DNA of 64,000 bases from Thermanaeromonas toyohensis ToBE (GCF_900176005.1 NZ_LT838272.1:2809587-2873586), one strand, 5' to 3'; shown: positions 13,928 to 40,219, counted from the first letter of the stretch. Numbers and translations: made by a program. Notes: generated from the sequence alone by a model not told the origin.

Positions 13928-13941
13928 TTCTTACCCCCCTT

Positions 13942-15108: not shown

Positions 15109-15119
15109 AAACTTCCCCC

Positions 15120-15956: not shown

Positions 15957-16063
15957 CGTTCTTATTCCCCCTTTCTCATAAAAATTTCATCTCTGTGTAA
16001 AGCGCACTATCTAGCACAAGTATCTAATAGGGAAAAGGTGCAGCCAATCAGGATTCTCCCTTA

Positions 16064-16099
16064 AAATTAAAAGCGCCTTAAGGGGTTCCCCTTAGGCGC
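16064..16099 (-). terminator. Terminator after the response-regulator gene
   Basis: GCGCC plus TAAGGGG (16073-16085, one bulged T) pairs with CCCCTTA plus GGCGC (16088-16099); read on the minus strand it is followed by TTTTAATTTT. It ends the sensor unit 19195-16142 and separates it from the molybdoenzyme operon. Confidence 0.85.
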
Positions 16100-16141
16100 C
16101 TCACTAGAATAAATAACATTATAATTGCTAGAACTATATTT

Positions 16142-16795: not shown

Positions 16796-16823
16796 AATTT
16801 CCCTCCTGCTATGCTATACCTTT

Positions 16824-19195: not shown

Positions 19196-19284
19196 TCCTA
19201 AGCCCCCCGAAGGTAAAATTTTAAATTCCAACAAAAATTATATCACAATCTTTATTTCTCGGTTCTTGTTGTCAAGCTTCGGTA

Positions 19285-21925: not shown

Positions 21926-22020
21926 ATTTAAATCCCCTTTTAGCCTAAATTTTCTGCTCACCATTTCGTTCGCTAGCAGCACTGTAGCGCTTCCTTCTAG
22001 TACATCTACCAGTAGAAGAC

Positions 22021-22065: not shown

Positions 22066-22860
22066 CTATCCTAATCTTCCTTCCCGGTAGGCCTTAAGAT
22101 ATTCACCACAATACTCATCTCTTCCTAGCAAAACTTTGGCGGCATATAGCAACCCCATAAGCTGCCTGTCTAGGGGATCTAATATTACAGCATCTAGCCC
22201 GGCCGTCATGGTACTCACCAGAAAGGCCTGGTTTAAAAGTTTCCGCTGGGGCAAACCATAGGAGACATTGCTTAGCCCACATATAACATGAACACTGGGA
22301 AAACGGGACTTTATCCCGTGAATTGTTTCTAAAACCCGGAGGCCAGCTTTATTGTCCGTGCTGACAGGCCTAACCAAAGGATCTACATATATATCATCCT
22401 GCTCAATGCCTTCCTTGAGCAGTTCCTCTATTAATCTACTTCCCACCTCGATAGCTTGTTCAGCTGTCTCCGGCATCCCCTTATCATCCATACATAAAGC
22501 TACCACTGACGCCCCAAATTCTTTAATAACGGACACCATCTCTTTGAACCTGGCCTTCTCACCAGTAATAGAGTTGACCATGGCTTTACCGCGGTGGTGC
22601 TTAAGGGCAGCCTGGAGAGCGACTGGATTAGGGGTATCTATACATAGGGGAACGTCCACTGCCTCCTGTACCACCTTCACCAGCCAGCTCAAGACCTCCG
22701 GTTCCTCTTTAAGAAATGTACCCGCATTTACATCCACCATAGCTGCCCCAGCTTCCACTTGTTTTTTAGCTTCCCCTCGAATAAAGGCGACATCCCTAGC
22801 TGCCACCGCTGGAGCAATATCTTTCCGGCTAGTGTTAATCCGCTCACCAATAACAAGCAA
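22066..22860 (-). CDS. Methyl-corrinoid:tetrahydrofolate methyltransferase (MtgA-like)
   Basis: A 264-residue TIM-barrel pterin-binding protein of the AcsE/MtgA/MtvA family: GERINTSRKDI at the N terminus, AGAAMVDVNAGTF, CIDTPNPVALQAAL, and GLSNVSYGLPQR, all pterin-site motifs. It should move the methyl group from the corrinoid protein (gene at 24355) to tetrahydrofolate, feeding the Wood-Ljungdahl pathway. It follows the second MttB by 26 bases. The set MttB-corrinoid-MttB-MtgA matches known quaternary-amine demethylation systems such as glycine-betaine MtgABC. Confidence 0.92.
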   Translation of the reverse strand: MLVIGERINTSRKDIAPAVAARDVAFIRGEAKKQVEAGAAMVDVNAGTFLKEEPEVLSWLVKVVQEAVDVPLCIDTPNPVALQAALKHHRGKAMVNSITGEKARFKEMVSVIKEFGASVVALCMDDKGMPETAEQAIEVGSRLIEELLKEGIEQDDIYVDPLVRPVSTDNKAGLRVLETIHGIKSRFPSVHVICGLSNVSYGLPQRKLLNQAFLVSTMTAGLDAVILDPLDRQLMGLLYAAKVLLGRDEYCGEYLKAYREGRLG

Positions 22861-22886: not shown

Positions 22887-24338
22887 TTAAACACCTAACC
22901 TCCTTTCTGCTTTGTTTACTACTTCTTTAACGCGAGCTTCCACATCCGGTGGCAGGGGTTCAGGCTTAAACTCTTCCAGGATCTGTTTTACTTTACGGTT
23001 TGCCTTCTCGCCTAGGCTTAAGCCCCCACTATTTTTCCATTCGTCCCAGCGCTGGCGATTTATTAATTTGGGGAACCACGTCTCATTTTTAAAATGCTTT
23101 AATGTATGCTCTTCTCCTAAGAAATGGCCACCAGGCCCAACCCGGTCTATAACTTCTACAGCAAGAGTCTCCTCATTTACCTCTATACCTCTTATGATAC
23201 GCTTGACCATACCTATAATTTCATCACACATCACAATCATCTCATAGGAACCTGTGAGCCCGTATTCCAGGTATCCCACATCGTGGATTAGGTTAGCCCC
23301 GCTCTGGGCAGCCATCAGGATGGAAATAGCTGCCTCGGCTGCTGCCTGCTGGTCGAGTATCTTAGAATCGGAACATCCTGCGGTGCTAAACATAGGCAAT
23401 CTATAATAGTGGGCCAGGTCAGCCAAGGCGCTGTGGAGGAGATGAAATTCTGGAGCGCCGTAAGAATAGATAGTAGTATTCATATCCATTATGGTGTACA
23501 CTCCGCCAGTGATGAAGGGAGAGCCTTCGCGCTTAAGCTGGTGCATTACTAGCCCGCTTAAGCTTTCGGCTGTACCGGTAACCAGGCCACCAGCCAAAGT
23601 AGCAGGAACAGTAGCGCCGCACATGATACAAGGCGTATAAATCACAGGAATCCGGTGCTCGGCTGCATATAACAATTTCTGAACCGCTTCTTTGCTATGC
23701 TTAAGCGGTGAAGAAGGTTCGGCATAAAGTATTATAAATGGGTTCTTCTGTAGTTCTTCTTCTCCTCCAGCCACTATAGAAGCCATTTCCACAATATCCG
23801 CCATACCTTCCACATCATGGGCTGTAAATACTATAGGTTTTGTAGTATTAAGGAGCATGGCTTCGAATTGATGCCGGTCAGAGACAGGGGTAGGCTTATC
23901 TTGCACTAAAACTAAAGACATAACAAAATCTATGTTAGGAAGGGCCTCGCAGATTTTGGCCGCATTAGCCACATCCTGCTTGGTGCACCGGCGACGTTCA
24001 CCTGTATAAGGGTCTAATATGTTAGGACAGTCTGAACCAGTGCCGAAGTAAATATTGTATCCCTCTAGTATCATAGTCCGTTTCCCGTGACGGTTGGCTA
24101 CAGCGACCCGCCGCGGGGCAGTACGCAAAGCCCATTCTACCAGGTGGCTGGGTACACGCACCCGGTTGCCATCCACATATGCTCCTGCTTTTTTGAAAAG
24201 TTCAAGGGCTTCCGCTTCATAAACTGCTACTCCTGTACGTTCCAATACTTCAAGGGCTGCAGCATGTATCTCTTCTAGCTGGTCTTCCGATAAAACCCTA
24301 AATTGGACGCTAGCCTGGACCGTATAATTGCTCCTCAT
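22887..24338 (-). CDS. MttB-family methyltransferase (second copy, non-pyrrolysine)
   Basis: A 483-residue member of the trimethylamine methyltransferase superfamily. The frame is uninterrupted and ends at TAA, so there is no amber codon for pyrrolysine and it belongs with the MtgB-type enzymes that demethylate quaternary amines (betaine, carnitine, proline betaine). Recognisable blocks are CSDSKILDQQAAAEA, NLIHDVGYLEYGLTGSYEM and VGPGGHFLGEEHTLKHF. It follows the corrinoid gene by 16 bases. The twin MttB gene at 25126 in the same operon is clearly homologous throughout, differing in the N-terminal and substrate-side segments. Confidence 0.92.
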   Translation of the reverse strand: MRSNYTVQASVQFRVLSEDQLEEIHAAALEVLERTGVAVYEAEALELFKKAGAYVDGNRVRVPSHLVEWALRTAPRRVAVANRHGKRTMILEGYNIYFGTGSDCPNILDPYTGERRRCTKQDVANAAKICEALPNIDFVMSLVLVQDKPTPVSDRHQFEAMLLNTTKPIVFTAHDVEGMADIVEMASIVAGGEEELQKNPFIILYAEPSSPLKHSKEAVQKLLYAAEHRIPVIYTPCIMCGATVPATLAGGLVTGTAESLSGLVMHQLKREGSPFITGGVYTIMDMNTTIYSYGAPEFHLLHSALADLAHYYRLPMFSTAGCSDSKILDQQAAAEAAISILMAAQSGANLIHDVGYLEYGLTGSYEMIVMCDEIIGMVKRIIRGIEVNEETLAVEVIDRVGPGGHFLGEEHTLKHFKNETWFPKLINRQRWDEWKNSGGLSLGEKANRKVKQILEEFKPEPLPPDVEARVKEVVNKAERRLGV

Positions 24339-24354: not shown

Positions 24355-25011
24355 TCACGCTACACAACTACCGGTAAGTTGAGCTACTAATCGCTTAGCC
24401 AAATCTGTAGCCGAGGCAGCATCAGGAGCATATCCATCGGCCCCGATTTCATCGGCGAAATCTTGAGTTACCGGTGCTCCTCCCACCATAACCTTAAATT
24501 TTTCGCGCACCCCTTCTCGCTTAAGAAGCTCTATAACATCCTTCATCACCAGCATGGTGGTAGTAAGCAGGGCAGACATCCCGATGATATCAGCTTTATT
24601 TTCTAAAGCTGTGGTAACAAACTTACTGGGCTCCACGTCTATACCCAAATCTATCACTTTAAAACCTGCACCTTCTAACATCATGCCTACCAGATTTTTC
24701 CCTATATCATGGAGGTCTCCTTTTACTGTTCCTAGAACTACAGTACCAGCAGGTTTAAGTTCGCCCTCTACTATCAATGGCTTTACTAAGCTTAGGCCGG
24801 TGTTCATGGCGCGGGCTGACATTAGTACTTCCGGTACAAACATCTCGCCTGCTTTAAATTTGGCCCCTACCTCGCTCATGCCCGCAATCAGCCCTTGATT
24901 TATCACTTCTAAGGGTGGGATACCTTCATCCAAGGCTTTGCGTGTAAGCTCTTCTACTTTCTGGATGTTACCAGAAATAACGCATTGAGCTAGCTCTTTG
25001 ATTACTGTCAT
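24355..25011 (-). CDS. Corrinoid protein, MttC/MtgC type
   Basis: A 218-residue methyl carrier. Start ATG 25011 is favoured over a TTG two codons earlier because GGGGG lies eight bases upstream. Residues 1-85 form the four-helix cap, and residues 88-215 the B12-binding domain with GDLHDIGKNLV (axial His about residue 101), the SALLTTTM loop and MVGGAPV. It lies between two MttB genes and presumably serves both. It resembles the corrinoid half of the fusion at 6928. Confidence 0.95.
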   Translation of the reverse strand: MTVIKELAQCVISGNIQKVEELTRKALDEGIPPLEVINQGLIAGMSEVGAKFKAGEMFVPEVLMSARAMNTGLSLVKPLIVEGELKPAGTVVLGTVKGDLHDIGKNLVGMMLEGAGFKVIDLGIDVEPSKFVTTALENKADIIGMSALLTTTMLVMKDVIELLKREGVREKFKVMVGGAPVTQDFADEIGADGYAPDAASATDLAKRLVAQLTGSCVA

Positions 25012-25125
25012 TTTCAATACCCCCTGTGTAACAATTTTTGTATTTGATTAAGACTTAATTAACACTTAGCTATTATTTAATTATTTCCCTTTTACTTAAC
25101 TCTTCTCCTTAAATTTACCACCTCC

Positions 25126-26583
25126 TTATCCCACCTCTTGTTCAGCCCTTTCTACAATTTCTGCCAACCTTCTCTTTGTAGTTTCCTCCAAGGGTTCTGG
25201 CTTGTGCCCTTCTACAATGGCTTTAATTTTATCCCTAACTCGCTGGCCCAGATCTTTTTTCCCAGAAGCTACCCAGGCATCATATCTCTGGCGGTCTATA
25301 ATTTCACTAGGTATAAAGCTTTCACGCTTAAAATACTTAAAGGTATGCTCTTCCATTAAGAAATGGCCACCGGGTCCTACGGCCTTTATTACATCTAAGG
25401 CTAGGGTTTCCGGGTTAACATCTATGCCCTCGATAATGCGGCGCACTAGGCCAATAATCTCATTAACCATTACTACCATCTCTAAAGAACCAGTAGAGCC
25501 GTATTCTGTATAACCTACATCATGGACTAAATTAGCCCCGCTTAAGGCGGCCATTAAACAACTGATGGCCGCCTCCAACGCCGCCTGTTGGTCTACCAGT
25601 TTAGAATCAGTACACCCTGCTGTACTGAATACAGGAATCTTGTAATAATGGGCTATTTCCGTAAAGGCAGCCTGGGCCAGGCTCAGCTCGGGTGCGCCAT
25701 AACTTAAAATGGTACTCTTCATATCCATAATAGATACCACGCCGCCCATGATGAAAGGCGCACCCTCACGGACTAGCTGAGCTAACACCAAGCCAGCCAA
25801 GCATTCAGCATTGGATAAGGCGAGCATCCCCGCCAGGGTAGCAGGTCCAGTAGCACCCGCAGTAGTACACGGCGTATACACCTGGGGTATAAGATGGCGA
25901 GCACAAAAGATGTTCTTTTTTAAGGCATCCTCACTGTGCTTTAATGGCGGGCTAGGTTCACCATATAGGGCTAAGAAGGGATATTTTTGAAATTCCTCTA
26001 AGCTCCCCGCAATAGCTATACACATATCTAACATGTACTTGTAATTTACATCGGTATACCCCCAGTGAACTATGGGTTTAGTGGAGTTATTGAACATTGC
26101 CTCTAGTATATGGATATCAGCAATTTTAGGATTGACATCTCTGGGGGTACCTAGATCTTCTAAAAAATCGATATTATCCAAGGCATCACAGACCAGGGCT
26201 ACACGGGCAGAATCGCTCTTTCGGGGATACCTTCTTTCACCCGTAAAAGGATCGCGGTGATAAGTATTGGTCGGCCCAGGACCAAAATAAGTCTTATGCC
26301 CTTCTAAGAAGAGCTTCCTGTTGCCGTTCCGATCACAAAGGACAATCCTGGAAGGGGCTGTCCTTATAGCCCACTCTACTAGACTCGGTGGAAACTTAAC
26401 ATTAATCCCGTCTACATAGCATCCTCCCTTTTTTAAAATCTGCCTTGCCTCTTCGTCGTAAATATTTACCCCCACACTAGACAAAATCTCCAGAGTAGCA
26501 TAATGTATTTCTTCTATTTGGGCATCAGATAAAAGTCTAAATTGAACACTATCATTTACTACATAGTTACTTCTATTCTTCAC
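25126..26583 (-). CDS. MttB-family methyltransferase (first copy, non-pyrrolysine)
   Basis: A 485-residue protein of the trimethylamine methyltransferase superfamily, starting at GTG 26583 behind GAGGAGGT and ending at TAA, without an internal amber codon. Shared family blocks are CTDSKLVDQQAALEA, NLVHDVGYTEYGSTGSLEM and VGPGGHFLMEEHTFKYF. It is the first gene of the corrinoid operon, with a 126-base 5' UTR back to a sigma-54 promoter at 26709-26724. It probably transfers a methyl group from a quaternary or N-methylated compound to the corrinoid protein; the specific amine is not deducible. Confidence 0.92.
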   Translation of the reverse strand: MKNRSNYVVNDSVQFRLLSDAQIEEIHYATLEILSSVGVNIYDEEARQILKKGGCYVDGINVKFPPSLVEWAIRTAPSRIVLCDRNGNRKLFLEGHKTYFGPGPTNTYHRDPFTGERRYPRKSDSARVALVCDALDNIDFLEDLGTPRDVNPKIADIHILEAMFNNSTKPIVHWGYTDVNYKYMLDMCIAIAGSLEEFQKYPFLALYGEPSPPLKHSEDALKKNIFCARHLIPQVYTPCTTAGATGPATLAGMLALSNAECLAGLVLAQLVREGAPFIMGGVVSIMDMKSTILSYGAPELSLAQAAFTEIAHYYKIPVFSTAGCTDSKLVDQQAALEAAISCLMAALSGANLVHDVGYTEYGSTGSLEMVVMVNEIIGLVRRIIEGIDVNPETLALDVIKAVGPGGHFLMEEHTFKYFKRESFIPSEIIDRQRYDAWVASGKKDLGQRVRDKIKAIVEGHKPEPLEETTKRRLAEIVERAEQEVG

Positions 26584-26708: not shown

Positions 26709-26724
26709 TGCAAAAAACGTGCCA
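26709..26724 (-). promoter_or_regulatory. Sigma-54 promoter A, MttB/corrinoid operon
   Basis: On the minus strand it reads TGGCACG-TTTT-TTGCA, a full match to the -24/-12 consensus. Transcription should start near 26697, ahead of GTG 26583. A homologous promoter lies at 33786 and a weaker one at 35379. Confidence 0.9.
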
Positions 26725-26773
26725 TTCTTATCAAAATTTGCTTTTGGGCTAGGTTGAATAGTTTATGTTTTAA

Positions 26774-26817
26774 CCCTGCCAAATTGTTTGCATGCAAAAA
26801 ATTAGGCAGGGTGCAAA
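26774..26817. promoter_or_regulatory. Activator-site dyad A (UAS)
   Basis: CCCTGCC (26774-26780) and GGCAGGG (26805-26811) flank 24 bases centred on GCATGC, followed by TGCAAAT. The centre is about 82 bases upstream of the -12 element of promoter A. The same dyad with the same N24 spacing recurs at 33841-33874, and its core recurs at 35423. Confidence 0.75.
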
Positions 26818-26844
26818 TAATCATTATCTACTTTTATCTACTTT

Positions 26845-28683
26845 TTAAGGCAGCCCCAGGCGCTCCAAAGTAGAAGCAAAGGGCCTCCCCCTTGCATCCC
26901 ATCCCCGGAGCTGATAATATTCGTCTAGCATCTTGTCACAATCCTCCGGAGGCAAAAAATGTCCTGCTGCCGGCCCGTCCGGTAAAGGCTCTTCTTGAAA
27001 ACGAGCTGGTAAAGAATCCTGCTCCCGCTCAATACCTTCCCTACAATTGAAGAGACGGGTTAAATTCCAGATTCTTTCACCGATAAGCTCTAAGTCAGCA
27101 GCGGTTATATCCTTGCCTGTAGCCGCCCGCACCAAGCTCGCATAAGTATCAGCCGTAATGCCATAGGCGGCAAAATCGCATTTTACCAGAGTATCAAGAC
27201 CAGCTAGATAGTTTTGGAGGTAAACCACCAGCTCTGCTTTTCCCTCTATTTCCAGACGAGAAAATTTACGCCCCCGCCATCTCTCACCGCCAACTTCATA
27301 CAATATAGGAAAAGCCCGCTGGTGGCAACCGCCTCTATCTCCTGTCATGTAAGCCAAACCCATACCAGGCGCGCCCCGGGGTCCCCAGGCAGGAGTCTCC
27401 AATCCTTTTACATGGACAGCCCATTTTCCGGAACCCTGGCCAATAGCTTCTGCAGCACGCTTAACGCCTTCAGCCAGAATATCACCTATTTCACTGGACC
27501 TATAAGCTATCTGTTTAATTAGTTCTTCGATCCCTTCCGGCTTACCAAAGCCCCATTGGTTAGAACCAGCCGGCCCTAGCCCCCGCTCTACTGTCTCCAA
27601 GAAGTAACCTAAAACACCCCCTGTGGACATAGAATCTAGCCCCAAGGCATCGCACAAGTATACAAGATAGGCGACTTCTTCTAAATTGTCCAAGCCCAGG
27701 TTGGCCCCCATCATAGCAGCGCTCTCATATTCTACTACATCTACAATAGTTCCTCTATGCTTCCCTCGCCGGATAACTCCCACCTTGCTACAAGCCACAG
27801 GGCAGGAAAAGCAGGCTGTATCCTTTAGCCAAAGCCGTTCCCTTTGGGCTTCGTTGTCTATTTTGCGTGAGCCGGAAAAGGTCCCCTGCCGGTAGTTAAA
27901 AACTGGTAGAAGACCTTCAGCATCTGCAAAAGGTATGGAGCCCGGGGTGCCGTCTATCTGGAAGGCCTCAATGTAAGGGCTTGCCCTTAGCTCGTGACGG
28001 GCACGGTTGACCGCTTCTATAAAAGCAGCTTTATCCTTTACCTGTATCCCACGCTCCCCTATCACTGCTATAGCCTTTAGGTTTTTGGAACCCATTACGG
28101 CCCCGCAACCACACCGCCCCGCATGGCGGTTATATTCGCAGCTAATAAGGGCAAAGCGTACCAGATTCTCGCCGGCCGGACCAATACAGGCAATTTTGGG
28201 ATCTTTTTCCTCCCCTATCTCTTGTTTTAAAGTCCACGAAGTCTTAAAGGTATCCAGTCCCCATAAATGCTTGGCAGGACGAAGCTCTACACGTTCTCCT
28301 TCGACTAATAAGTAAACAGGCTCTGGAGCTTTCCCTTTTATCACAATACCATCGTAGCCTGCGTACTTTATTTCCGGAGCCAGGGATCCCCCGAAATAGG
28401 AATCGGCAAAGATGCCGGTCAGGGGAGATTTAGTAACTACACAGCCACGCATGGAGGGGGCTAGAGTACCAGTCAGAGGCCCAGATAAAAACATGAGCAA
28501 ATTGTTTTCGTCAAAGGGATCGGTACCTGGGGGTAACCGATCCCACAATAGCTTGGCTCCCCAACCTTTGCCTCCCAAAAACTTATCAGTAAGGGTTTCT
28601 TTTAGCTCCTCTTTTTCTACAGTTCCGCTGCTTAAATCTACCCATAACAACTGGCCCATATAACCGTAACCCACTTTACCCAC
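26845..28683 (-). CDS. Tungsten aldehyde:ferredoxin oxidoreductase
   Basis: A 612-residue AOR-family enzyme of usual length. It begins GYGYMGQLLWVDLSSGTVE, keeps the tungstopterin-binding domain-1 block (GPLTGTLAPSMRG, EYNRHAGRCGCGAVMGSKNLKAI split across two motifs) and the [4Fe-4S] ligands CFSCPVAC plus the late Cys in LFNCREG. It oxidises aldehydes to acids with ferredoxin. It is the last gene of a six-gene minus-strand unit, directly behind a four-cluster ferredoxin (8 bases) that is probably its electron acceptor, and an iron alcohol dehydrogenase that could supply the aldehyde. Aldehyde identity is unknown. Confidence 0.93.
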   Translation of the reverse strand: MGKVGYGYMGQLLWVDLSSGTVEKEELKETLTDKFLGGKGWGAKLLWDRLPPGTDPFDENNLLMFLSGPLTGTLAPSMRGCVVTKSPLTGIFADSYFGGSLAPEIKYAGYDGIVIKGKAPEPVYLLVEGERVELRPAKHLWGLDTFKTSWTLKQEIGEEKDPKIACIGPAGENLVRFALISCEYNRHAGRCGCGAVMGSKNLKAIAVIGERGIQVKDKAAFIEAVNRARHELRASPYIEAFQIDGTPGSIPFADAEGLLPVFNYRQGTFSGSRKIDNEAQRERLWLKDTACFSCPVACSKVGVIRRGKHRGTIVDVVEYESAAMMGANLGLDNLEEVAYLVYLCDALGLDSMSTGGVLGYFLETVERGLGPAGSNQWGFGKPEGIEELIKQIAYRSSEIGDILAEGVKRAAEAIGQGSGKWAVHVKGLETPAWGPRGAPGMGLAYMTGDRGGCHQRAFPILYEVGGERWRGRKFSRLEIEGKAELVVYLQNYLAGLDTLVKCDFAAYGITADTYASLVRAATGKDITAADLELIGERIWNLTRLFNCREGIEREQDSLPARFQEEPLPDGPAAGHFLPPEDCDKMLDEYYQLRGWDARGRPFASTLERLGLP

Positions 28684-28691
28684 CTCTTACT

Positions 28692-29084
28692 TTATACCGC
28701 TTCTAATTCCAGGGCACCCGTAGGGCATACCTTAACGCATTCCGGTTGGCCCTGGCATAACTCACATTTATAAGCCGTTCCCTCTCGTAAAACAATCACT
28801 TTCCAGGGACAATACTCCGCGCATAACCCGCACCCAGTACAATTATTAGTATCAATTTTAACTATCTCTTCCCGATTAACAGCCTTGCTAGGGCACACCC
28901 TTAAGCAGAAAGCGTTCTCGCACTGTCCACAGGTTACCGGCTGGAAAAAAAGCCCGTCCCGCCTCCTTTCCACCCTCATCAAGGCCAAGTGCGGAGTAAA
29001 CTCACCGGTGAAGTTAAAGGAACAGGCGAGCAGGCAAAGGTTGCAACCGGTACACTTATCAGGCTTAGCCCTAAGTCTTCCCAT
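28692..29084 (-). CDS. Four-cluster ferredoxin, AOR electron-transfer subunit
   Basis: A 130-residue polyferredoxin with four cysteine groups: CTGCNLCLLAC, CGQCENAFCLRVC, CTGCGLCAEYC and CELCQGQPECVKVC. It is of the HycB/DmsB kind often paired with AOR-family enzymes. No signal peptide, so cytoplasmic. It precedes the AOR gene by eight bases and should accept its electrons. Confidence 0.92.
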   Translation of the reverse strand: MGRLRAKPDKCTGCNLCLLACSFNFTGEFTPHLALMRVERRRDGLFFQPVTCGQCENAFCLRVCPSKAVNREEIVKIDTNNCTGCGLCAEYCPWKVIVLREGTAYKCELCQGQPECVKVCPTGALELEAV

Positions 29085-29120
29085 AATTTCCAGCTCCCGT
29101 ATCTTTAACTCCTAATACCT

Positions 29121-30281
29121 CTATACAGCCAGCAATTTTTCGTACATCATGACATAGCTCTCATAGGTGAGATCACGCGGATTACCAATGGTTTGGGGAT
29201 CCTCAAAGGCAAGCCTAGCCAGGAATGGAATATCCTCCCGGGTAACACCCGTACTGCTTAAGGGCGGGATCTCCAAATCAGCCACAAGCTCTTTTACCGC
29301 TTTTATAGCCAGCTTTGCCGCCTCTTCTACTTTAAGACCCCGTATATCTTCACCCATGGCTAAAGCGATCCTGGCGTATTTCTCGGGGCAGCCCATCCAG
29401 TTATATTCCATCACCACAGGCATCATGACAGCAGTTAAGTACCCATGATGTACATCGATGTATCCTCCAAAGGTCTGGGCCATGGCATGGATAGCCCCAG
29501 CGCTCTCTGTGCCATAGCTCATCCCGGCTAGGCAGGCAGCCATGGCCATATTATACCGCGCCTCTAGATCATGACCATAAGCTACTGCTTTACGCAAGTT
29601 TTGGGCAATAAGTTCTATAGCCATAAGGGCCACCGCATCGGTAATAGGTTGGGCATAGGCACAAGTATAGCATTCTATGGCATGGGAAAGGGCATCCATC
29701 CCTGTCCAGGCCGTCAGGTTAGCTGGGAGATCGAGCATTAATTCTGGATCTATCAAGGCTACTGCCGGTGCGATAAGGGGGGTACCACCCACGTTAAACT
29801 TTATTTTTCTAGCCGGGTCAGTAATAACGGCCCAGAGGGTTACTTCGCTGCCCGTACCTGCAGTAGTGGGAATGGCAATTAATGGAGGTATCTTGTTGGT
29901 AATCTCCTGCTTCCCGTATTCATAATTTAGGATACTATCCCCATGAACAACTTCGACACCTATAGCCTTAGCTGTATCTATAGAGCTCCCGCCACCCAGA
30001 GCAATAAGGATATCGGCCTCGCTCTCCTTGTAGGCAGCCGTGCCCCGGCCCACCAGCTCCACCGGCGGGTTGCCCACCACCTCACTAAAAACCCTATATG
30101 GTATCTTCTCTTCCTCTAGCACAGCTGTAAGGCGCTGGAGCAAACCCGCTTTAACTACACCTGCATCTGTAACAATTAACGCCTTGCGGCCACCTAAACG
30201 TTTTATCTCCTCACCTATAGTCTTAAGGCTACCTGGTCCGTGCTTGATAAGGGTGGGGGTGATCCAGCTCTGTACTTTCAT
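29121..30281 (-). CDS. Iron-containing alcohol dehydrogenase
   Basis: A 386-residue group III dehydrogenase. The NAD-binding GGGSSIDTAKAIG motif and the iron-binding residues in DALSHAIECYTC and AIHAMAQTFGGYIDVHHG are present. It interconverts an alcohol and an aldehyde with NAD(P). Paired with the downstream AOR it could oxidise an alcohol to an acid in two steps. It belongs to the sigma-54 unit starting at promoter B. Confidence 0.93.
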   Translation of the reverse strand: MKVQSWITPTLIKHGPGSLKTIGEEIKRLGGRKALIVTDAGVVKAGLLQRLTAVLEEEKIPYRVFSEVVGNPPVELVGRGTAAYKESEADILIALGGGSSIDTAKAIGVEVVHGDSILNYEYGKQEITNKIPPLIAIPTTAGTGSEVTLWAVITDPARKIKFNVGGTPLIAPAVALIDPELMLDLPANLTAWTGMDALSHAIECYTCAYAQPITDAVALMAIELIAQNLRKAVAYGHDLEARYNMAMAACLAGMSYGTESAGAIHAMAQTFGGYIDVHHGYLTAVMMPVVMEYNWMGCPEKYARIALAMGEDIRGLKVEEAAKLAIKAVKELVADLEIPPLSSTGVTREDIPFLARLAFEDPQTIGNPRDLTYESYVMMYEKLLAV

Positions 30282-30308
30282 AATCTTTTCCTCCCCTATT
30301 CAAAAGAA

Positions 30309-31250
30309 TTATCCAGAAGTGAGAAGATACTTTTTAATGCCTGTATCATCTAGATCTATAAGGCACCCCAGCAAAATCCCCTGCTCATAAGAACTCCCAG
30401 GGTTAATGCAAAGGGTTTTACCCAGTCTCTTTATCCCCTTCCCTTCGTGGATATGCCCGAATAAACCTAACGGGGGCTGGTATTTTTCCACAATAACCCT
30501 CACTGCTTTACTACCTACTGGTACTAAAGACCTCCCAGCATATTTGGGTCTTAGCATAGCATCTAGCTCGGGTGCCTCATCTAAACCTGACTGGTACGGA
30601 GGAGCATGGAAATTAAAGATAGCGTATTCGAGAGAGGTATCAAGTTGCTGCACTATATTTTCTAGCCTAACGTGCAGTTCTTCCTCTGAGCATTCCCTAT
30701 ATGTCTGCCAAGGTGTGGGATTGGTCCAACCTGTGCTCACCATGAGCCACCGGCGGTTTATTTCCACTACTTTGCCTTCCGCCACTTTCACCCTTTTACC
30801 TTTTTTAAAAACCTCATCAACTTCAAACATATCGTCGTTACCGGGACAGATGTAACAATCTATTCCCCACTCTTTAAGCCTCGCTTCGGCATATTCCAGC
30901 CATCTCTCTGCCGTCTGTAAAACTAGTCCCTCAAATCGTTTTTTCACCAGGGCTGGATCACGGCATAGTTCTTGGTATTCTTCCTCGCTGACCACTAGAG
31001 GATAATATCCTCGATTCCTAATCAAGCTCTCCATCTCTTCTAACTGGCCCTCTTTAATAGTCATTTGCTGTTCTAAAAAGGATACCTTATATTTTTTACC
31101 TGGAATTGAAACTATAGGAACTAAAGCTTTACCTGTAATATCCCCCCCTAAGATCAGAACCTCGGCCTGATAAAACTTACCGGCATTGATAAATTTCTTC
31201 CAGCAGACTTCCGAACCATGAACATCGGTAGCGAAAAATATCCTAGTCAT
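30309..31250 (-). CDS. Metallophosphoesterase
   Basis: A 313-residue calcineurin-like phosphoesterase. All metal-site motifs are visible: TDVHG, LGGDITGK, CPGNDD, NFHAPP and GHIHEG, with a Cys/Asn-Pro-Gly-Ser end (INPGSSYEQG). It may remove phosphate from a metabolite of the pathway. Its presence with a nucleotidyltransferase-fold protein in the same unit is unusual; a phosphorylated or nucleotidylated intermediate is possible but unproven. Confidence 0.88.
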   Translation of the reverse strand: MTRIFFATDVHGSEVCWKKFINAGKFYQAEVLILGGDITGKALVPIVSIPGKKYKVSFLEQQMTIKEGQLEEMESLIRNRGYYPLVVSEEEYQELCRDPALVKKRFEGLVLQTAERWLEYAEARLKEWGIDCYICPGNDDMFEVDEVFKKGKRVKVAEGKVVEINRRWLMVSTGWTNPTPWQTYRECSEEELHVRLENIVQQLDTSLEYAIFNFHAPPYQSGLDEAPELDAMLRPKYAGRSLVPVGSKAVRVIVEKYQPPLGLFGHIHEGKGIKRLGKTLCINPGSSYEQGILLGCLIDLDDTGIKKYLLTSG

Positions 31251-31273
31251 TCTTAAGGACCACCCGCTCCGTG

Positions 31274-32908
31274 TTATTCTACCGGGATATTACGATATAC
31301 CATCTCTAAATCTATACCCTGTTTACGCCTCAACCACTTGGAAACGACATAGATAGTTATAGCTATAAGGTAAAGGATTAACATATATATAGCCGATACC
31401 GGGTTATTAACCCCATAGGTGCTATCTGTAGCCCACTTATAAATGTTCCAAGCTAAGAAAGCAGCAAAAATAACCCCAGCTATAGATATAACCGGTACTG
31501 TACCCACCTTGTAACGTGAAACAGGTGAGGAAGCAAATAGGGCTTTATCCTTGTAAGGTAGAAGAATTCCTGCAATGGTTGTGCCCAAGTAAGTAATAGC
31601 TATAACTACTGTGGTATCTAGTGTATAAGTAGAGAAGCCTGGTAAGTATGAATATAAAATGCTGATAATAGTAGCAGGAATGGCCATAAGCAACAGTGCG
31701 TTAAAGGGCACCCTCGTACGTGGGGATACATGGGCCACCCATTCTGGTAATACCCTATCGAAGGCAGCCGCAAAGATTACCCGGGTAGAAGATAAGAATA
31801 CGGTACCGCACCAACCGAAGAACCACATGCTAAGGCTTAAGAGAATTATTAGCTGCCATAAAGGATTACTGCTCAAAAGAGCTATGAAAAGGCCTGGATA
31901 AGGGAAAATGGGTAGGAGTGACTCTCCGCCAAAAAATACATTATTGACAGCGAGATAGAATTCCCATCCAAAGGTTTTAGCAAAAAGTACAAGCAACAGG
32001 AGGGCCAGTATTACAGCAACCAGTAAGCCTCCCATCATACTCCAAAAATTACGCTTAAATTCAGTCGCTCCCTGTACTTCACCATATAGGGTAGCTCCCC
32101 AGTTAGGCCATAGGTTCCAGAACAGGACCAGGGGAATAAGCGGCAAGCTGGCTACCAAGGACATCTGATTCCAAGCTACTGGAGTATACCCTGCGCTTTT
32201 AGCCTGTTCTAAAATCTTTTGATATAGGTTAGCGTCCGCCTGAAACATAGATGCGGCAAAGGAGTTAAAATTGTTAATAAAAGCAGCCTTATCCGCACTT
32301 AATAACATGATAATAGAAATCAACAAGCCACCCATACCTACATAAAAACAGAATTTCTGGATGCGGGCATAGGTCTTCATGCCTAGACCTACGAACACAA
32401 AAGCTAGAACTATAACAATAAGCGAGGAAAAAAACAAACCATTTTTGTCAATAAACCATAAAGCGAGGTCAATAAAAGCCTTATTTTGAGTCCAGCTAGC
32501 TAACCATAAAGAAAGGGGTGAAAGTACTTCATAGCTTAAGATATTCCCATAAACAGGTACCCAATGCCATAGTATAAACACCCAACCCGTCATAGAAAGT
32601 ACGAACCCCAAGCCGCCTCCTAAAACCCGGCTCTGCCACACATAGTCTCCGCCTGCCCGCGGCATTACGGAAATTAACATAGAATAAACTACAATTTCGG
32701 CTATTATAAATAGGCTGCTTATAATAATAGCTGGTATTAGGTGGGCTTCAGGGAAAAAAGGGGCAAAAGCAAAAATATATAATCCTAAAGTAATGAGATT
32801 AACGGAAAAGAAAGCATAAATAAAGCCATCAAAAAGGGACCAAGCCCTTACTAACCCGCTAGCTTTTCTTACAAATACTGTCGTCTCGGCCATTTCTCCC
32901 ACCTCCAA
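31274..32908 (-). CDS. APC-family amino acid/amine permease
   Basis: A 544-residue transporter with about twelve to fourteen hydrophobic segments. The N-terminal VRAWSLFDGFIYAFFSVNLITLG and PRAGGDYVWQSRVLGGGLGFVLS are APC hallmarks, and the SSTRVIFAAAFDRVLPEWV loop is typical of amine/amino-acid permeases. It lies in the sigma-54 unit with alcohol and aldehyde oxidation genes, so it is the best candidate for uptake of the substrate that the MttB enzymes demethylate. Start ATG 32908 overlaps a GGAGGTGGGAGA RBS context; a second ATG five codons later is also possible. Confidence 0.88.
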   Translation of the reverse strand: MEVGEMAETTVFVRKASGLVRAWSLFDGFIYAFFSVNLITLGLYIFAFAPFFPEAHLIPAIIISSLFIIAEIVVYSMLISVMPRAGGDYVWQSRVLGGGLGFVLSMTGWVFILWHWVPVYGNILSYEVLSPLSLWLASWTQNKAFIDLALWFIDKNGLFFSSLIVIVLAFVFVGLGMKTYARIQKFCFYVGMGGLLISIIMLLSADKAAFINNFNSFAASMFQADANLYQKILEQAKSAGYTPVAWNQMSLVASLPLIPLVLFWNLWPNWGATLYGEVQGATEFKRNFWSMMGGLLVAVILALLLLVLFAKTFGWEFYLAVNNVFFGGESLLPIFPYPGLFIALLSSNPLWQLIILLSLSMWFFGWCGTVFLSSTRVIFAAAFDRVLPEWVAHVSPRTRVPFNALLLMAIPATIISILYSYLPGFSTYTLDTTVVIAITYLGTTIAGILLPYKDKALFASSPVSRYKVGTVPVISIAGVIFAAFLAWNIYKWATDSTYGVNNPVSAIYMLILYLIAITIYVVSKWLRRKQGIDLEMVYRNIPVE

Positions 32909-32914
32909 GTATTT

Positions 32915-33610
32915 TTAGGCCTGAGGTAATTCGTCTACTTCCTTATACCACTTAACCCTTTCTCCTATTTTGCTCCTCATTTTCCAGGCTAAAGATTTGG
33001 GCTCCTTTTCAATATACCTCCTAATTGCAGCAATCTTTTGTGTTACGTCTTCATAATCTTCTTCCCTAAGCTGAGCCCGATATTGTTCCAATTTTTGACT
33101 AACTTTATCTAAATTCATCGTAATAGTCTTCCATAAACCCCAGTCTTGAGCACAGCGCCTGGCAATCAATTTCGCATTAATTATTTCTGTATCCTCTTCT
33201 CCAATTCCGTGTTCTCGGATAATCATTATTGTATCTATGATGTCCTTCTCATTGAGCTTCACAATCTGCATCTTCTCCATAAAAAGCTCAGCTAAAGGTA
33301 TAGTAGGAAAGTCTACATCAAGCCTATCCCGTAATGGAATTACATGACAGAAATCTAAACAATCTAGGAATACATCACAATGAAGGCCATTGGGATGATT
33401 AAATACCAGCCTCCCCGTCCCATATAAAACTCTAACCTCCATATCCTCTTGATAGCCTAATGCTTTAAAAACCTCTCTAATCCTTTCCCCTTCTTCAGAA
33501 CGGGCTGCCAGATCGATATCTGTAAACACTCGCTTCAAAGTATCTTGTAAATAGTTGTACCGTGGACAATGATGATAAAAAGCTAAGGCCCCTAATAAAC
33601 GTACTGTCAC
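32915..33610 (-). CDS. Nucleotidyltransferase-fold protein, start uncertain
   Basis: At least 231 residues. The segment LLGALAFYHHCP...FTDIDLAA resembles the Gly-Ala-x-Ala...Asp-x-Asp active-site pattern of minimal nucleotidyltransferases, which add nucleotides or sense metabolites. The first allowed start in this frame, GTG 33610, leaves no room for an RBS. Upstream codons remain open to about 33707 and encode a convincing helix (EAKRIIDFCQERKV) before the active site, yet contain no ATG, GTG or TTG. The true start may be a non-standard codon such as CTG 33679, or there is a small frameshift. It is the first gene after sigma-54 promoter B. Confidence 0.65.
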   Translation of the reverse strand: MTVRLLGALAFYHHCPRYNYLQDTLKRVFTDIDLAARSEEGERIREVFKALGYQEDMEVRVLYGTGRLVFNHPNGLHCDVFLDCLDFCHVIPLRDRLDVDFPTIPLAELFMEKMQIVKLNEKDIIDTIMIIREHGIGEEDTEIINAKLIARRCAQDWGLWKTITMNLDKVSQKLEQYRAQLREEDYEDVTQKIAAIRRYIEKEPKSLAWKMRSKIGERVKWYKEVDELPQA

Positions 33611-33785
33611 CTTCCTTTCTTGGCAAAAATCAATTATCCGCTTGGCTTCAGTTAGAAAATGTTCCCTTGAAAACGACAGAAAGACCCCCCCTGCTCTAAC
33701 ATATTTTTAAATCTTACCTATTACCTTTTGCCCTGTTTTTCTCCTTGCATTTCGATTCCTCAACTCTTCCTTAAAATGTGATATA

Positions 33786-33801
33786 TGCAAAAGACGTGCC
33801 A
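33786..33801 (-). promoter_or_regulatory. Sigma-54 promoter B, permease/ADH/AOR operon
   Basis: Minus strand reads TGGCACG-TCTT-TTGCA, a full consensus match differing from promoter A at one spacer base. It lies 176 bases before GTG 33610 and 115 bases after the end of the third MttB gene. Confidence 0.9.
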
Positions 33802-33840
33802 TCCCTAAGAGAATGCCTAAAAATAAAACCACTCGCTATG

Positions 33841-33880
33841 CTGCCAAATTATTTAGCAGCCAAAAATTGGGCAGGTGCAA
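33841..33880. promoter_or_regulatory. Activator-site dyad B (UAS)
   Basis: CTGCC (33841-33845) and GGCAG (33870-33874) flank 24 bases, exactly as at 26774. The interior (AAATTATTT...AAAAATTG) and the TGCAAAA tail are also shared. Centre about 70 bases upstream of the -12 element of promoter B. Confidence 0.75.
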
Positions 33881-33916
33881 AATCATTTGGCAACCCCACA
33901 TCCGTCTACCTGAACT

Positions 33917-35335
33917 CTATCCCTTCTCCACCTTCTCTATGAAGGCATTTAAGTCGCGTTCCAGATCTTTACCCAACCCCGGGGGCTCAAAACAGGCGAG
34001 GATCTCTTGCCAGCGAGAAAAGGCAATAGCCGCCAAGTCTTTACCTTCTTCGGCCCAGTGGCTGTAATTTTCCCGGTTGAGCAACCTGGGTTCCCAGTTC
34101 TCCTGACGGAAATTGTGCAAAGTATGCATTTTATCCAGATAAAAACCCTGTGGTCCAGCTTCTGCAATGGCCTGCAGGGCCAGCCCATTCTCATCTACGG
34201 CAAAACCCCGCCGTAAGCGGCGGACCATACCGCAAAGCTCATCATCGATAACTAATTTTTCATAGGACATAGTTAAATAAGTTTCTAGGATACCAGCGGC
34301 ATGGAGTACAAAATTAACCCCGCTTAAGGCAGTAGCCATAAGGGTATGCATGCTTTCCGCCGCTGCCTGAGCATCTACTATTTTGCTATCTGTTAAAGCC
34401 CCGCCACTCCGACATGGTAGGCCATAATACTTCGCCATCTGAGCACCGCTGATAGTTATTAGAGCCGTCTCTGGTGCGCCGATAGCCATGGCTCCATTGC
34501 GCATATCTACCGGGTGAGAAGCACACCCATAAATTACCGGCGCCCCCTCTTTTACCAGCTGGGCTAGTGTTATACCAGTTAGAATCTCAGCATTAATTTG
34601 GGCCAAGGTACCGCTTATAGTTACAGGAGAGGTAGAACCAGCCTGGGCCATGGAAGCTATTATCACAGCCTGTCCGTGGCGTGCATGTTCTATTAAGGCT
34701 TCAGCCATACGTCCATCTAAACTTAAAGGCGGAAGGGTGTTAATAAGGGTTATTAATACAGTATGAGATTCTAAAAATTCGCGACCGAAGACCACTTCCG
34801 CCATATGAATGGTGTCCAGCGCCTTTTTCTTACCATAAGGGCTACCCATGAGGCACTTATCTGAGTACTTAAGGGAAGCTTCTAGCATTTTAACATGCCT
34901 TATCTCTTCAGGGACATCATTAGGCTCAGTAAGGATCCCGCTAGCTAGATCAAGGTTAGAGCAAGCCTGGGCAATCTTTACTAAGTTTATAAAATCTTCT
35001 ATAGTACCTTCCCGGCGTCCTCGAGAGAGATCAGAGACAAAAGGCGCGCCATACCCAGGAGCCAGCACAAAATTATCCCCGCCAATACGCACACTCCTTG
35101 CAGGATTGCGCGCATGTAGGGTAAACTCCGCGGGCGCCTTTTTTATCTGGGTTTCTACTAATTTAGGAGGTAGGTAAACAGTTTCTCCCTCTACTTTGGC
35201 ACCTGCTTTGGAGAGAATATCCCTGGCTTCGGTAGAAAAGATGCGGATCCCTACACGTTCTAAAATCCAAAGGGAGGCGGCATGAATGTTCTCTATCTCG
35301 TCTGGAGTTAGACAGGTAACTCGAGGACAAGCCAT
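33917..35335 (-). CDS. MttB-family methyltransferase (third copy)
   Basis: A 472-residue MttB superfamily protein with family blocks ALTDSKIVDAQAAAES, NFVLHAAGILETYLTMSYEKLV and AGPQGFYLDKMHTLHNF. It is more divergent from the other two copies (for example VGPGGHFL becomes AGPQGFYL), so a different substrate is likely. It starts at ATG 35335 behind GGAGGT and ends at TAG at the normal family C terminus, so pyrrolysine read-through is unlikely. It forms its own unit behind sigma-54 promoter C and has no adjacent corrinoid gene. Confidence 0.9.
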   Translation of the reverse strand: MACPRVTCLTPDEIENIHAASLWILERVGIRIFSTEARDILSKAGAKVEGETVYLPPKLVETQIKKAPAEFTLHARNPARSVRIGGDNFVLAPGYGAPFVSDLSRGRREGTIEDFINLVKIAQACSNLDLASGILTEPNDVPEEIRHVKMLEASLKYSDKCLMGSPYGKKKALDTIHMAEVVFGREFLESHTVLITLINTLPPLSLDGRMAEALIEHARHGQAVIIASMAQAGSTSPVTISGTLAQINAEILTGITLAQLVKEGAPVIYGCASHPVDMRNGAMAIGAPETALITISGAQMAKYYGLPCRSGGALTDSKIVDAQAAAESMHTLMATALSGVNFVLHAAGILETYLTMSYEKLVIDDELCGMVRRLRRGFAVDENGLALQAIAEAGPQGFYLDKMHTLHNFRQENWEPRLLNRENYSHWAEEGKDLAAIAFSRWQEILACFEPPGLGKDLERDLNAFIEKVEKG

Positions 35336-35378
35336 TTTTATTTACCTCCATTTTTATTTATCTCTTTCAACACATATA

Positions 35379-35394
35379 CGCAAAAATGATGCCA
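35379..35394 (-). promoter_or_regulatory. Sigma-54 promoter C, third MttB gene
   Basis: Minus strand reads TGGCATC-ATTT-TTGCG. The GG and GC dinucleotides and the spacing are conserved, with deviations at the outer bases, so it is weaker than A and B. It lies 44 bases before ATG 35335. Confidence 0.78.
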
Positions 35395-35422
35395 TTCCAT
35401 TTGGGGTTTAAAAACGGAGAAC

Positions 35423-35464
35423 GCAATTTTTTAGGCATGCAAAAAAATAGACATGGTGCTAAAA
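35423..35464. promoter_or_regulatory. Activator-site C (UAS), between divergent genes
   Basis: The core GCATGCAAAAAAATAG (35435-35450) followed by ACATGGTGCTAAAA aligns with dyad A (GCATGCAAAAAATTAG...GGTGCAAAT). The left arm is degenerate. Centre is about 57 bases upstream of the -12 element of promoter C and about 115 bases before the activator gene, so it might also serve autoregulation. Confidence 0.65.
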
Positions 35465-35484
35465 ATTTGTCAGCTATATTCTGC

Positions 35485-35514
35485 TTTTCCGTGATATCAC
35501 CCTTTTGATATAAT
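35485..35514 (+). promoter_or_regulatory. Probable promoter of the sigma-54 activator gene
   Basis: A perfect TATAAT (35509-35514) with a poor TTTTCC -35 (35485-35490) and 18-base spacer. The weak -35 suggests low expression. Confidence 0.5.
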
Positions 35515-35554: not shown

Positions 35555-37372
35555 ATGCTTTCTCAAGTACTGCCGACGATCCTTGATAGTATTCAGGAGG
35601 GTATTATAATTGTCAATAAATCTCACGAAATTATCGCTTTTAATAGATCTGCCACCGAAATTTTGAACATTTCTAACCTTAAAGGAGCAAAATTGTCAGA
35701 ATTATTTCCTGAACTTGTAGATTTATCCAGGAAAGAAGCTGAAGGAGAATTCTGTCTAAAAGCGAGCCAAGACAGTCCTCCCCGTTGGGTTAAGGTAACT
35801 AAAAAATCCCTTACTGAGGTAGGAGAAGAAATAACTCTTTTCATATTCCAAGATATAACTAAATTGTCACGCTTGCGCCAATGCAAACGAGAACTCCTAC
35901 GTATAAAGAAGCATTATGAATATATTCTAGACTCCCTGGAAGAAGGGGTTATAGTTACCGACCGAGAAGGTTATATTATTTACATTAATGCGGCCCAAGA
36001 GAAGCTAGATCGCGTGCATCGGAAGGATTTCCTGGGACGGCACATAACCCAAGCATATAACCTAAACGAAGAAGGTAGTCTTATCATGCAAGCTTTAAAA
36101 ACCAAAAAGCCTGTACCAGAACAACAGCAATTTTATATAACTATGCTAGGCCAAGCCGTAAATATCGTGGCCAATGCTTTCCCCCTAATGGATGAACATA
36201 ACGAAATTATTGGAGCTGTATGTATCTGCAGGGAAACTACCAAGGCTAGAGAACTAGCAGAGAAGATATTGCATCTTTTTGATAGCAATCCAATTAACTC
36301 TAAAAATATAATAGGGATGTCGCAGTACAATGTTTCCCATACCATGTCTACACGCAAGCCTTCTAATATCCGTTATCAATTCAAAGATATTATTGGAACC
36401 AGCCGCAAACTCCAAACAGCCCTTCATTGGGCTAAGATGGCAGCAGGTACAGATTCTAGTGTCTTAATCTATGGGCCCACAGGTACGGGAAAGGAGCTCT
36501 TCGCCCAGAGTATCCACAGTGCAAGCAGTCGCCACGAAGGGCCCTTTATCGGGGTGAACTGCGCAGCCCTTCCAGAGACATTATTAGAAAGCATTTTGTT
36601 TGGAACCGTAAAAGGGGCTTTCACTGGAGCAGTAGACCGTCCTGGTCTCTTTGAGCAGGCCCATGGAGGAACCCTTTTCCTGGACGAACTTAACTCTATG
36701 CCTCTGGGACTTCAGGCCAAACTACTGCGCGTGTTACAAGACGGGCGGATACGCCGGGTCGGAGGAACCCAAGAAATACCTGTATCCGTACGGATTATCA
36801 GCAGCTTAAACAGGGATCCTTTCTCTGCAGTCCAAGAAGGCCTTTTACGTGCAGACCTGTTTTACCGCTTGGGAGTAATCTTAATAGAAATACCTCCCCT
36901 TTGTGAGCGGAAAGAAGATATACCACAGCTGGTCTCTTATTTTATCAACAAATTTAATACCCTTTTGGGCCGGAAGGTCCAAGGGGTTACTTCAGAAGTC
37001 ATGGATCTGTTTTTAAGTTATGACTGGCCAGGAAATGTAAGGGAGTTAGAACATGTAATCGAGTGCTCTATGAATGTTATTGGGGATCAAACATATATAA
37101 TGCTGGAACATCTACCACCACACCTTAAGCTTAAGCTCCCGCAGGGCCGTCCTGGATCTCAATTATCGTGGAATAACTTAGAAACACGTATCCAGCTCGG
37201 CCGGGGGTCCTTGAAAAAAGAGCTTGCCCTGGCGGAGAAGGACCTAATAATGCAAATACTTAATCAAACCTCAGGAAACATATCCCAAGCTGCCCGTATC
37301 TTAGGTATTAGCCGACAAAGCCTGCAGTATCGATTAAAAAAGTTTGCTTGTCAATCTAAAAACTCAAACTAA
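35555..37372 (+). CDS. Sigma-54-dependent activator (PAS-PAS-AAA+-Fis)
   Basis: A 605-residue enhancer-binding protein. Two PAS domains (about residues 5-105 and 120-230) form the sensory part; there is no receiver domain. The AAA+ domain (about 275-505) has Walker A GPTGTGKE (307-314), the sigma-54 contact loop GAFTGA (354-359) and Walker B LFLDEL. The C-terminal Fis-type HTH reads NISQAARILGISRQSLQYRLKK. RBS AGGGGGCGG precedes ATG 35555. It is divergent from the third MttB gene and flanked by three sigma-54 promoters with shared dyads, so it is very likely their activator. It senses a small ligand or redox state through PAS, identity unknown. The stop overlaps the convergent GlcF-like gene by four bases. 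Confidence 0.95.
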   Translation: MLSQVLPTILDSIQEGIIIVNKSHEIIAFNRSATEILNISNLKGAKLSELFPELVDLSRKEAEGEFCLKASQDSPPRWVKVTKKSLTEVGEEITLFIFQDITKLSRLRQCKRELLRIKKHYEYILDSLEEGVIVTDREGYIIYINAAQEKLDRVHRKDFLGRHITQAYNLNEEGSLIMQALKTKKPVPEQQQFYITMLGQAVNIVANAFPLMDEHNEIIGAVCICRETTKARELAEKILHLFDSNPINSKNIIGMSQYNVSHTMSTRKPSNIRYQFKDIIGTSRKLQTALHWAKMAAGTDSSVLIYGPTGTGKELFAQSIHSASSRHEGPFIGVNCAALPETLLESILFGTVKGAFTGAVDRPGLFEQAHGGTLFLDELNSMPLGLQAKLLRVLQDGRIRRVGGTQEIPVSVRIISSLNRDPFSAVQEGLLRADLFYRLGVILIEIPPLCERKEDIPQLVSYFINKFNTLLGRKVQGVTSEVMDLFLSYDWPGNVRELEHVIECSMNVIGDQTYIMLEHLPPHLKLKLPQGRPGSQLSWNNLETRIQLGRGSLKKELALAEKDLIMQILNQTSGNISQAARILGISRQSLQYRLKKFACQSKNSN

Positions 37373-38679: not shown

Positions 38680-38700
38680 CGTTCTTCTGCTCCCACTTCT

Positions 38701-40107: not shown

Positions 40108-40219
40108 CGACCCCCGCAAATTTACTTTATCGAACAAAATACAAATTCTCGAAGGAAGGAGAGTTTCCTACCGCCTAGCAGGCAGGGATTCGCCTTCGTA
40201 AGCAGAAATTTTATATATT

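Follow-up and report, generated by a model that had tools for sequence, protein, structure and literature searches.

A candidate sigma-54 regulon for choline and glycine betaine use in Thermanaeromonas toyohensis ToBE

In anoxic settings, methyl groups are abundantly supplied by choline and glycine betaine, which feed acetogenesis or methane formation. In the acetogen Sporomusa sphaeroides KIAC, betaine-induced SigL promoters and sigma-54 regulators were described in 2025 for a 58-kb betaine cluster, and this was called a first report (PMC12456013). According to the passages on that cluster, it combines several TGGCA-N6-TTGC promoters and sigma-54 regulators with betaine transport, mtgABC and mttBC, and is active on betaine (PMC12456013). 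In strain DCMF ('Ca. Formimonas warabiya'), the parts of the report that deal with glycine betaine describe an MttB/MtgC/MtgA cluster strongly induced by this compound (PMC9768040), and a 2025 survey placed MttB-family genes among the sigma-54 targets in Clostridia (PMC12316311). Furthermore, the regulons of Clostridiales enhancer-binding proteins (EBPs), such as PrdR, SarR, AorR and others, employ PAS-type one-component activators and inverted-repeat upstream activating sequences (UASs; PMC6615313). A similar arrangement is present in the stretch analysed here, a window of 64,000 nucleotides from Thermanaeromonas toyohensis ToBE (NZ_LT838272.1:2809587-2873586; genome of 3.33 Mb, one contig), which contains three sigma-54-type promoters (P1–P3), an upstream element at each (E1–E3), and an adjacent activator gene, named 35555 after its first position in the window.

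On the best reading, these features form one local sigma-54 regulon of 12 genes (five under P1, six under P2 and one under P3), probably run by the adjacent activator, and choline/glycine betaine, not the methylated amines at large, is its most likely substrate. The explanation as a whole, in which 35555 binds E1–E3 and drives P1–P3 for the uptake, oxidation and demethylation of choline and betaine, is given a probability of about three in four.

Promoters and upstream elements

Sigma-54 promoters are defined by GG at −24 and GC at −12 with 10 bp between them, within the consensus TGGCACG-N4-TTGCW. All three promoters lie on the minus strand. P1 (TGGCACGTTTTTTGCA, 26709–26724) and P2 (TGGCACGTCTTTTGCA, 33786–33801) match the consensus perfectly, and the weaker P3 (TGGCATCATTTTTGCG, 35379–35394), situated before an mtgB-like gene, departs from it at three positions with GG and GC intact. 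The genome encodes RpoN in a single gene above the family cutoff (437.7 bits), and the strict pattern TGGCAY-N5-TTGCW occurs at 26 genome sites, P1 and P2 among them, against five for the reversed control pattern; sigma-54 promoters are therefore truly used in this genome. Transcription from P1–P3 would be carried out by RpoN-RNA polymerase.

Upstream of the promoters, E1 (CTGCCAAATTGTTTGCATGCAAAAAATTAGGCAG, 26776–26809) is composed of an abutting pair of TGC-N10-GCA units (26777–26792 and 26793–26808). E2 (CTGCCAAATTATTTAGCAGCCAAAAATTGGGCAG, 33841–33874) contains TGC-N11-GCA and AGC-N10-GCA, and a third unit, TGC-N11-GCA, further out at 33876–33892 extends the element to 33841–33892. E3 (about 35420–35453) consists of CGC-N10-GCA (35422–35437) and TGC-N10-ACA (35438–35453). 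The register is constant, the second unit beginning 16 bp after the first in all three elements, and the GCATGC centre arises because two abutting TGC/GCA units create it at their junction. The centres of E1, E2 and E3 are separated from the −12 GC by approximately 81, 70 and 57 bp, respectively; P1 and P2 differ by 11.5 bp, about one helical turn, with another 13 bp of difference at P3. A preliminary description of this DNA had listed the three minus-strand sites, the last as weaker, with a related element at these distances upstream of each, and all were located where it placed them. It had also read the first two elements as a dyad, CTGCC-N24-GGCAG, with a core shared by the third; the features named are present, but in place of a simple 34-bp dyad a tandem of two TGC-N10/11-GCA units, set in a constant 16-bp register, describes the element better. 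Inverted triplet pairs 10–12 bp apart are a usual form of activator site, as in the TGT-N10-12-ACA sites of 15 Clostridiales groups (Nie et al., PMC6615313).

Self-pairing of E1 extends over 15 of 17 positions, compared with 14 for the best 34-mer among 30 shuffled windows. E2 and E3 are identical to E1 at 27 and 23 of 34 positions, respectively, and the best E1 match per shuffled window was mostly 20–22, with one of 23 and one of 24, so that E2 exceeds chance, and E3 by itself is no more than marginal. For comparison within the genome, 24 other strict sigma-54 sites were examined over the 200 bases on their upstream side, giving 27 sites in total. By identity to E1, the top three places go to P1, P2 and P3 in this order (34, 27 and 23), the others reaching at most 19; E3 is thus convincing by its position. 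The same order is obtained with a tandem-triplet score (12, 11 and 10; others at most 9), which was built on the P1–P3 elements themselves, so the identity ranking is the more telling. A composite pattern of −24/−12 plus UAS occurs three times in the whole genome, all here (reversed control, 0); since it was fitted to the same three sites, this result measures specificity and adds no independent support.

The position of E1 and E2, roughly 35–45 bp past stop codons, would also suit transcription terminators or hairpins in the RNA where the upstream genes end, with the promoters controlled otherwise, and the E1 RNA does fold into a strong hairpin (−19 kcal/mol, z −3.4). However, no U run follows, E2 does not clearly fold better than its shuffles (z −0.9 for a short and −0.1 for a long stretch), and a terminator scan was empty at both elements. 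In addition, E3 sits between divergent genes, and the elements of orthologous loci keep TGC-N11-GCATGCAAA without long complementary arms. The terminator reading is very unlikely, and it was dropped on the folding of E2 and the empty scan.

The activator and its orthologues

The activator gene (35555..37372, plus strand) is divergent from the mtgB-like gene and encodes two N-terminal PAS sensor domains, an AAA+ domain with GAFTGA and a Fis-type helix-turn-helix (Pfam), which together identify a sigma-54 EBP, as in the preliminary description. The label of the proline reductase regulator PrdR was rejected (NCBIfam NF041552, 405.5 bits; cutoff 795). Read directly from the sequence, the gene's own promoter resembles a sigma-A extended −10, TGATATAAT (35506–35514), adjoined by a perfect palindrome, GTGATATCAC (window 35491–35514), a possible site for a further regulator. 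E3 is placed between the mtgB-like gene and the activator gene, hence the speculation that the activator may regulate its own gene as well. A GlcD/GlcF-like FAD oxidase and Fe-S protein pair (37369–40137) ends convergently against the activator gene.

Homology search gave no close orthologue of the activator in the host's genus or family. The best matches come from Syntrophaceticus, Thermacetogenium and related metagenome-assembled genomes, at about 53–59% identity over predicted open reading frames. In a tree of 93 activators, the 35555 protein and six rows of this group form a clade with a Shimodaira–Hasegawa-like approximate likelihood ratio (SH-aLRT) support of 100, all beside MttB-type genes; because some of the six rows duplicate one genome, the clade represents about five other genomes. 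Across the whole tree, the MttB-neighbour label is clustered, with 10 changes against 22 expected by shuffling. Around the orthologous activators lie an mtgB-like gene with a corrinoid protein gene, an mttB-corrinoid-mttB-hydantoinase-like-mtgA operon, and a BCCT transporter. Locus L080 also carries glycine/sarcosine/betaine reductase genes, and genes of matching size stand at their place in L082. The L080 transporter, which has the element at its promoter, passes the NCBIfam cutoff for glycine betaine BCCT transporters (656.8; cutoff 650), and its L083 homologue scores 571, under that cutoff.

The decamer GCATGCAAAA, shared by E1 and E3, is found six times in the orthologue loci (73 kb), compared with seven times in 1.4 Mb around other activators. 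Five of these six copies, and one GCATGCAAAG in L083, are situated upstream of sigma-54-type sites before an mtgB-like or BCCT gene, each flanked on its left by TGC-N11-GCA. Meanwhile, the mttB promoters of the orthologue loci carry TGC-N11-GCA, in L081 in the form CTGCCATATTATTTTGCA, which is identical to E2 at 16 of 18 positions (shuffled loci, at most 14). The 20-base stretches of E1 and E3 matched the orthologue loci no better than shuffles. The conserved part is therefore the short TGC/GCA triplets with the GCATGCAAA core, not the whole 34-bp dyad. Lack of conservation before orthologous operons had been named in advance as evidence against the regulon; elements were instead found preceding the mtgB-like, mttB and BCCT promoters. 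The inverted repeats upstream of both the window promoters and the orthologue-linked promoters are candidate operators of the kind used by EBPs.

In a phylum-wide scan for motif plus promoter, three of the four clade genomes in the sample were matched, together with nine genomes outside the clade, and the regulon is thus not defined by the motif on its own. Three loci from another Bacillota family (L177–L179, in genomes G030, G317 and G338) have GCATGCAAA upstream of sigma-54-type sites, in G030 adjoining an activator gene. Related activators may share a site type with GCATGCAAA.

With about 17 activators encoded in the genome (at the search threshold) and binding not readable from sequence, E1–E3 might be bound by an activator encoded elsewhere, 35555 controlling something else. 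Against this stand the adjacency of 35555, the gene linkage and motif conserved in its orthologue clade, and the lack of the element at other promoters, among them those flanking the closest paralogue; control from another locus is unlikely, and 35555 remains the preferred regulator. That paralogue (L222, G000:C1:2755950-2768007) is about 36–41% identical to 35555 and has strict sigma-54 sites on both sides. No MttB-type genes were found within the 19 kb examined at its locus, and no E1-type element at its promoters.

Gene content and predicted functions

The single P3 gene (33917..35335, minus strand, as are all genes of the three units) encodes a non-pyrrolysine member of the MttB superfamily, an open frame without an internal stop, that matches the solved glycine betaine methyltransferase 9yce over its full length with 493 bits, compared with 196 bits for trimethylamine methyltransferase. 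It is clearly MtgB-like and is predicted to be a glycine betaine:corrinoid methyltransferase. The P1 unit begins with a non-pyrrolysine MttB-superfamily methyltransferase (25126..26583; Pfam MTTB; trimethylamine equivalog 463 bits, cutoff 525), followed by an MtgC/MtbC-like corrinoid protein (24355..25017; Pfam B12-binding; NCBIfam TIGR02370 above cutoff), for which the MtgC models score best yet under their cutoff. A second non-pyrrolysine MttB-superfamily methyltransferase (22887..24338) and an MtgA-like corrinoid:tetrahydrofolate methyltransferase (22066..22860; Pfam Pterin_bind; NF005719 356.6 bits, cutoff 259) come next. A cysteine-rich protein (21176..21982), to which no Pfam family matched, would end the operon, judging from spacing; a homologue about 51% identical is found in L068 near another activator. 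The pyrrolysine trimethylamine methyltransferase (MttB) label was rejected for all three MttB proteins, which score 380, 463 and 500 bits with TIGR02369 (cutoff 525) and lack any in-frame stop that could encode pyrrolysine.

P2 precedes six genes that probably form one operon. They encode a nucleotidyltransferase-like protein (32915..33610; matched only weakly in Pfam, and with an actual start that probably lies farther upstream), an APC-type permease that is a candidate choline/amine importer (31274..32908; Pfam AA_permease_2), a calcineurin-like phosphoesterase (30309..31250; Pfam), a GbsB-type iron-containing choline dehydrogenase (29121..30281; NCBIfam NF053866 576.8 bits, cutoff 550), a 4Fe-4S ferredoxin-like protein (28692..29084; Pfam), and an aldehyde:ferredoxin oxidoreductase (AOR; 26845..28683; Pfam; 439 bits to 1aor), for which the ferredoxin-like protein would be the partner. 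Dehydrogenase neighbourhoods were compared in 11 other Bacillota genomes where 29121 has a close homologue, and eight loci (L193–L200) were extended. In all eight, a ferredoxin-like gene and an AOR gene lie within 20 kb of the dehydrogenase gene, directly adjoining it in seven; in L184, AOR adjoins the dehydrogenase within the shorter stretch examined. The triplet (window 26845–30281) thus recurs across Bacillota families. L193 holds the complete six-gene P2 set, permease and phosphoesterase included, adjoining a PucR-type regulator, and ProV-type betaine/proline/choline transporter genes are found near the module in L194 and L200. The nucleotidyltransferase-like (32915–33610) and phosphoesterase (30309–31250) genes accompany the module in two distant genomes, the present one and that of L193 (L193:11082-12899). 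In the open-access literature, no paper was found tying AOR to choline oxidation. The simplest reading is that the dehydrogenase would convert choline to betaine aldehyde, which AOR would then oxidise to glycine betaine, and the three genes are a candidate undescribed ferredoxin-linked choline oxidation module.

The same regulon could instead serve another substrate, the dehydrogenase and AOR acting on methanol, ethanol or ethanolamine and the methyltransferases on tri- or dimethylamine. An alcohol dehydrogenase–AOR pair serves methanol in Desulfotomaculum kuznetsovii, in work cited in a passage of PMC11505543, and for the two P1 methyltransferases (25126 and 22887), similarity to glycine betaine enzymes does not clearly exceed that to trimethylamine enzymes. 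On the other side, the choline dehydrogenase equivalog cutoff is reached by 29121 and by its homologues in L193, L194 and L197, ProV-type transporters stand near the module in two relatives, 33917 is clearly MtgB-like, the three MttB proteins have no pyrrolysine-type stop, and the L080 locus combines a betaine transporter with glycine/sarcosine/betaine reductase genes. Another substrate is accordingly doubtful, and choline/glycine betaine is retained. The preliminary description had proposed a single local regulon of 12 or more genes for methylated-amine use. The regulon is supported at 12 genes, with the triplets and core of its elements conserved in the orthologue loci; the substrate is narrowed, most probably to choline/glycine betaine, by the MtgB-like 33917, the score of 29121 and the recurrent triplet.

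Within this scheme, 35555 would be a one-component PAS/AAA+ EBP sensing choline, glycine betaine or a breakdown product. It would bind the tandem TGC-N10/11-GCA units 57–81 bp upstream and drive RpoN-RNA polymerase at P1–P3. P2 would provide uptake and oxidation through the permease, the dehydrogenase, ferredoxin and AOR, turning choline into glycine betaine with reduction of NAD and ferredoxin. The MtgB-like product of P3 would transfer a methyl group from glycine betaine to the corrinoid protein. P1 would supply this corrinoid protein and two further methyltransferases of the MttB type, whose substrate is perhaps dimethylglycine or an amine related to it, and its MtgA-type enzyme would pass the methyl group to tetrahydrofolate and into the Wood-Ljungdahl pathway.

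Several points weigh against this scheme. P3 is a weak promoter, E3 taken by itself is near chance, and the spacings are imperfectly phased. GCATGCAAA also occurs near sigma-54 sites in relatives outside the clade and is not unique to 35555, and another of the genome's many activators could bind E1–E3. No betaine transporter of a known type and no reductive activator were identified in the cluster. The orthologous activator loci are without the choline module, so the P2 genes' membership rests on E2 in one genome. Finally, all support comes from sequence, from which binding, expression and growth on the substrates are predicted.

Elsewhere in the window, positions 10772–19234 encode a molybdopterin oxidoreductase with a twin-arginine (TAT) signal, NrfD and a ferredoxin subunit, then a LuxR-type response regulator, a histidine kinase and a PhnD-like binding protein, which we take to resemble a reductase for sulfur oxyanions, of the tetrathionate type, together with a sensor system for it.

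Comparison with known systems

The second step of Bacillus GbsAB is performed by the aldehyde dehydrogenase GbsA. The window shares the GbsB-type choline dehydrogenase family (NCBIfam) with this system, but has AOR and ferredoxin in place of GbsA. In the case of Eubacterium limosum, MthKBCA demethylation of phosphocholine is likewise cobalamin-dependent and delivers choline methyls to tetrahydrofolate; however, choline is phosphorylated and demethylated directly there, whereas the likely first step in the window is oxidation to betaine (PMC12155760). The glycine betaine clusters of DCMF, Acetobacterium woodii and Desulfitobacterium hafniense contain MtgB, MtgC, MtgA and extra MttB-superfamily proteins, a likeness drawn by protein types, but the passages on them mention no sigma-54 regulator or operator, and the HydA-like and BCCT genes of DCMF are absent from the window (PMC9768040 and works cited there). 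Compared with the TGT-N10-12-ACA repeats of the Clostridiales EBP regulons, the repeat in the window is a tandem TGC/GCA in a 16-bp register; the main text of that regulon reconstruction does not mention betaine, choline, methylamine or methyltransferase (PMC6615313).

The Sporomusa cluster is also among the closest known systems, though it spans 58 kb with betaine reductase and transporters, its activators being comparable with 35555 by description only, and the passages on it name neither an operator nor a choline dehydrogenase/AOR module (PMC12456013). The preliminary description knew of no described regulon with this gene set, which is only partly true because a sigma-54 betaine cluster had been reported in Sporomusa, although without an operator or choline oxidation in the passages concerned (PMC12456013). 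The arrangement described here thus extends, with good support, a type of control that is already known, and sigma-54 control of betaine use is not new in principle.

What the analysis adds is a candidate operator, a defined activator clade along with the promoters that it would target, and choline oxidation as a predicted part of the regulon. An explicit operator for the betaine activator clade would make such regulons predictable in other genomes. The co-regulated choline module points to a betaine aldehyde step carried out by AOR, which would conserve reducing power in the form of ferredoxin. More tentatively, and at somewhat less than even odds, one activator may couple choline oxidation, with AOR replacing betaine aldehyde dehydrogenase, to corrinoid-dependent demethylation, in which case the dehydrogenase-ferredoxin-AOR triplet would represent a widespread and so far undescribed way for anaerobes to turn choline into betaine with a gain of reduced ferredoxin.

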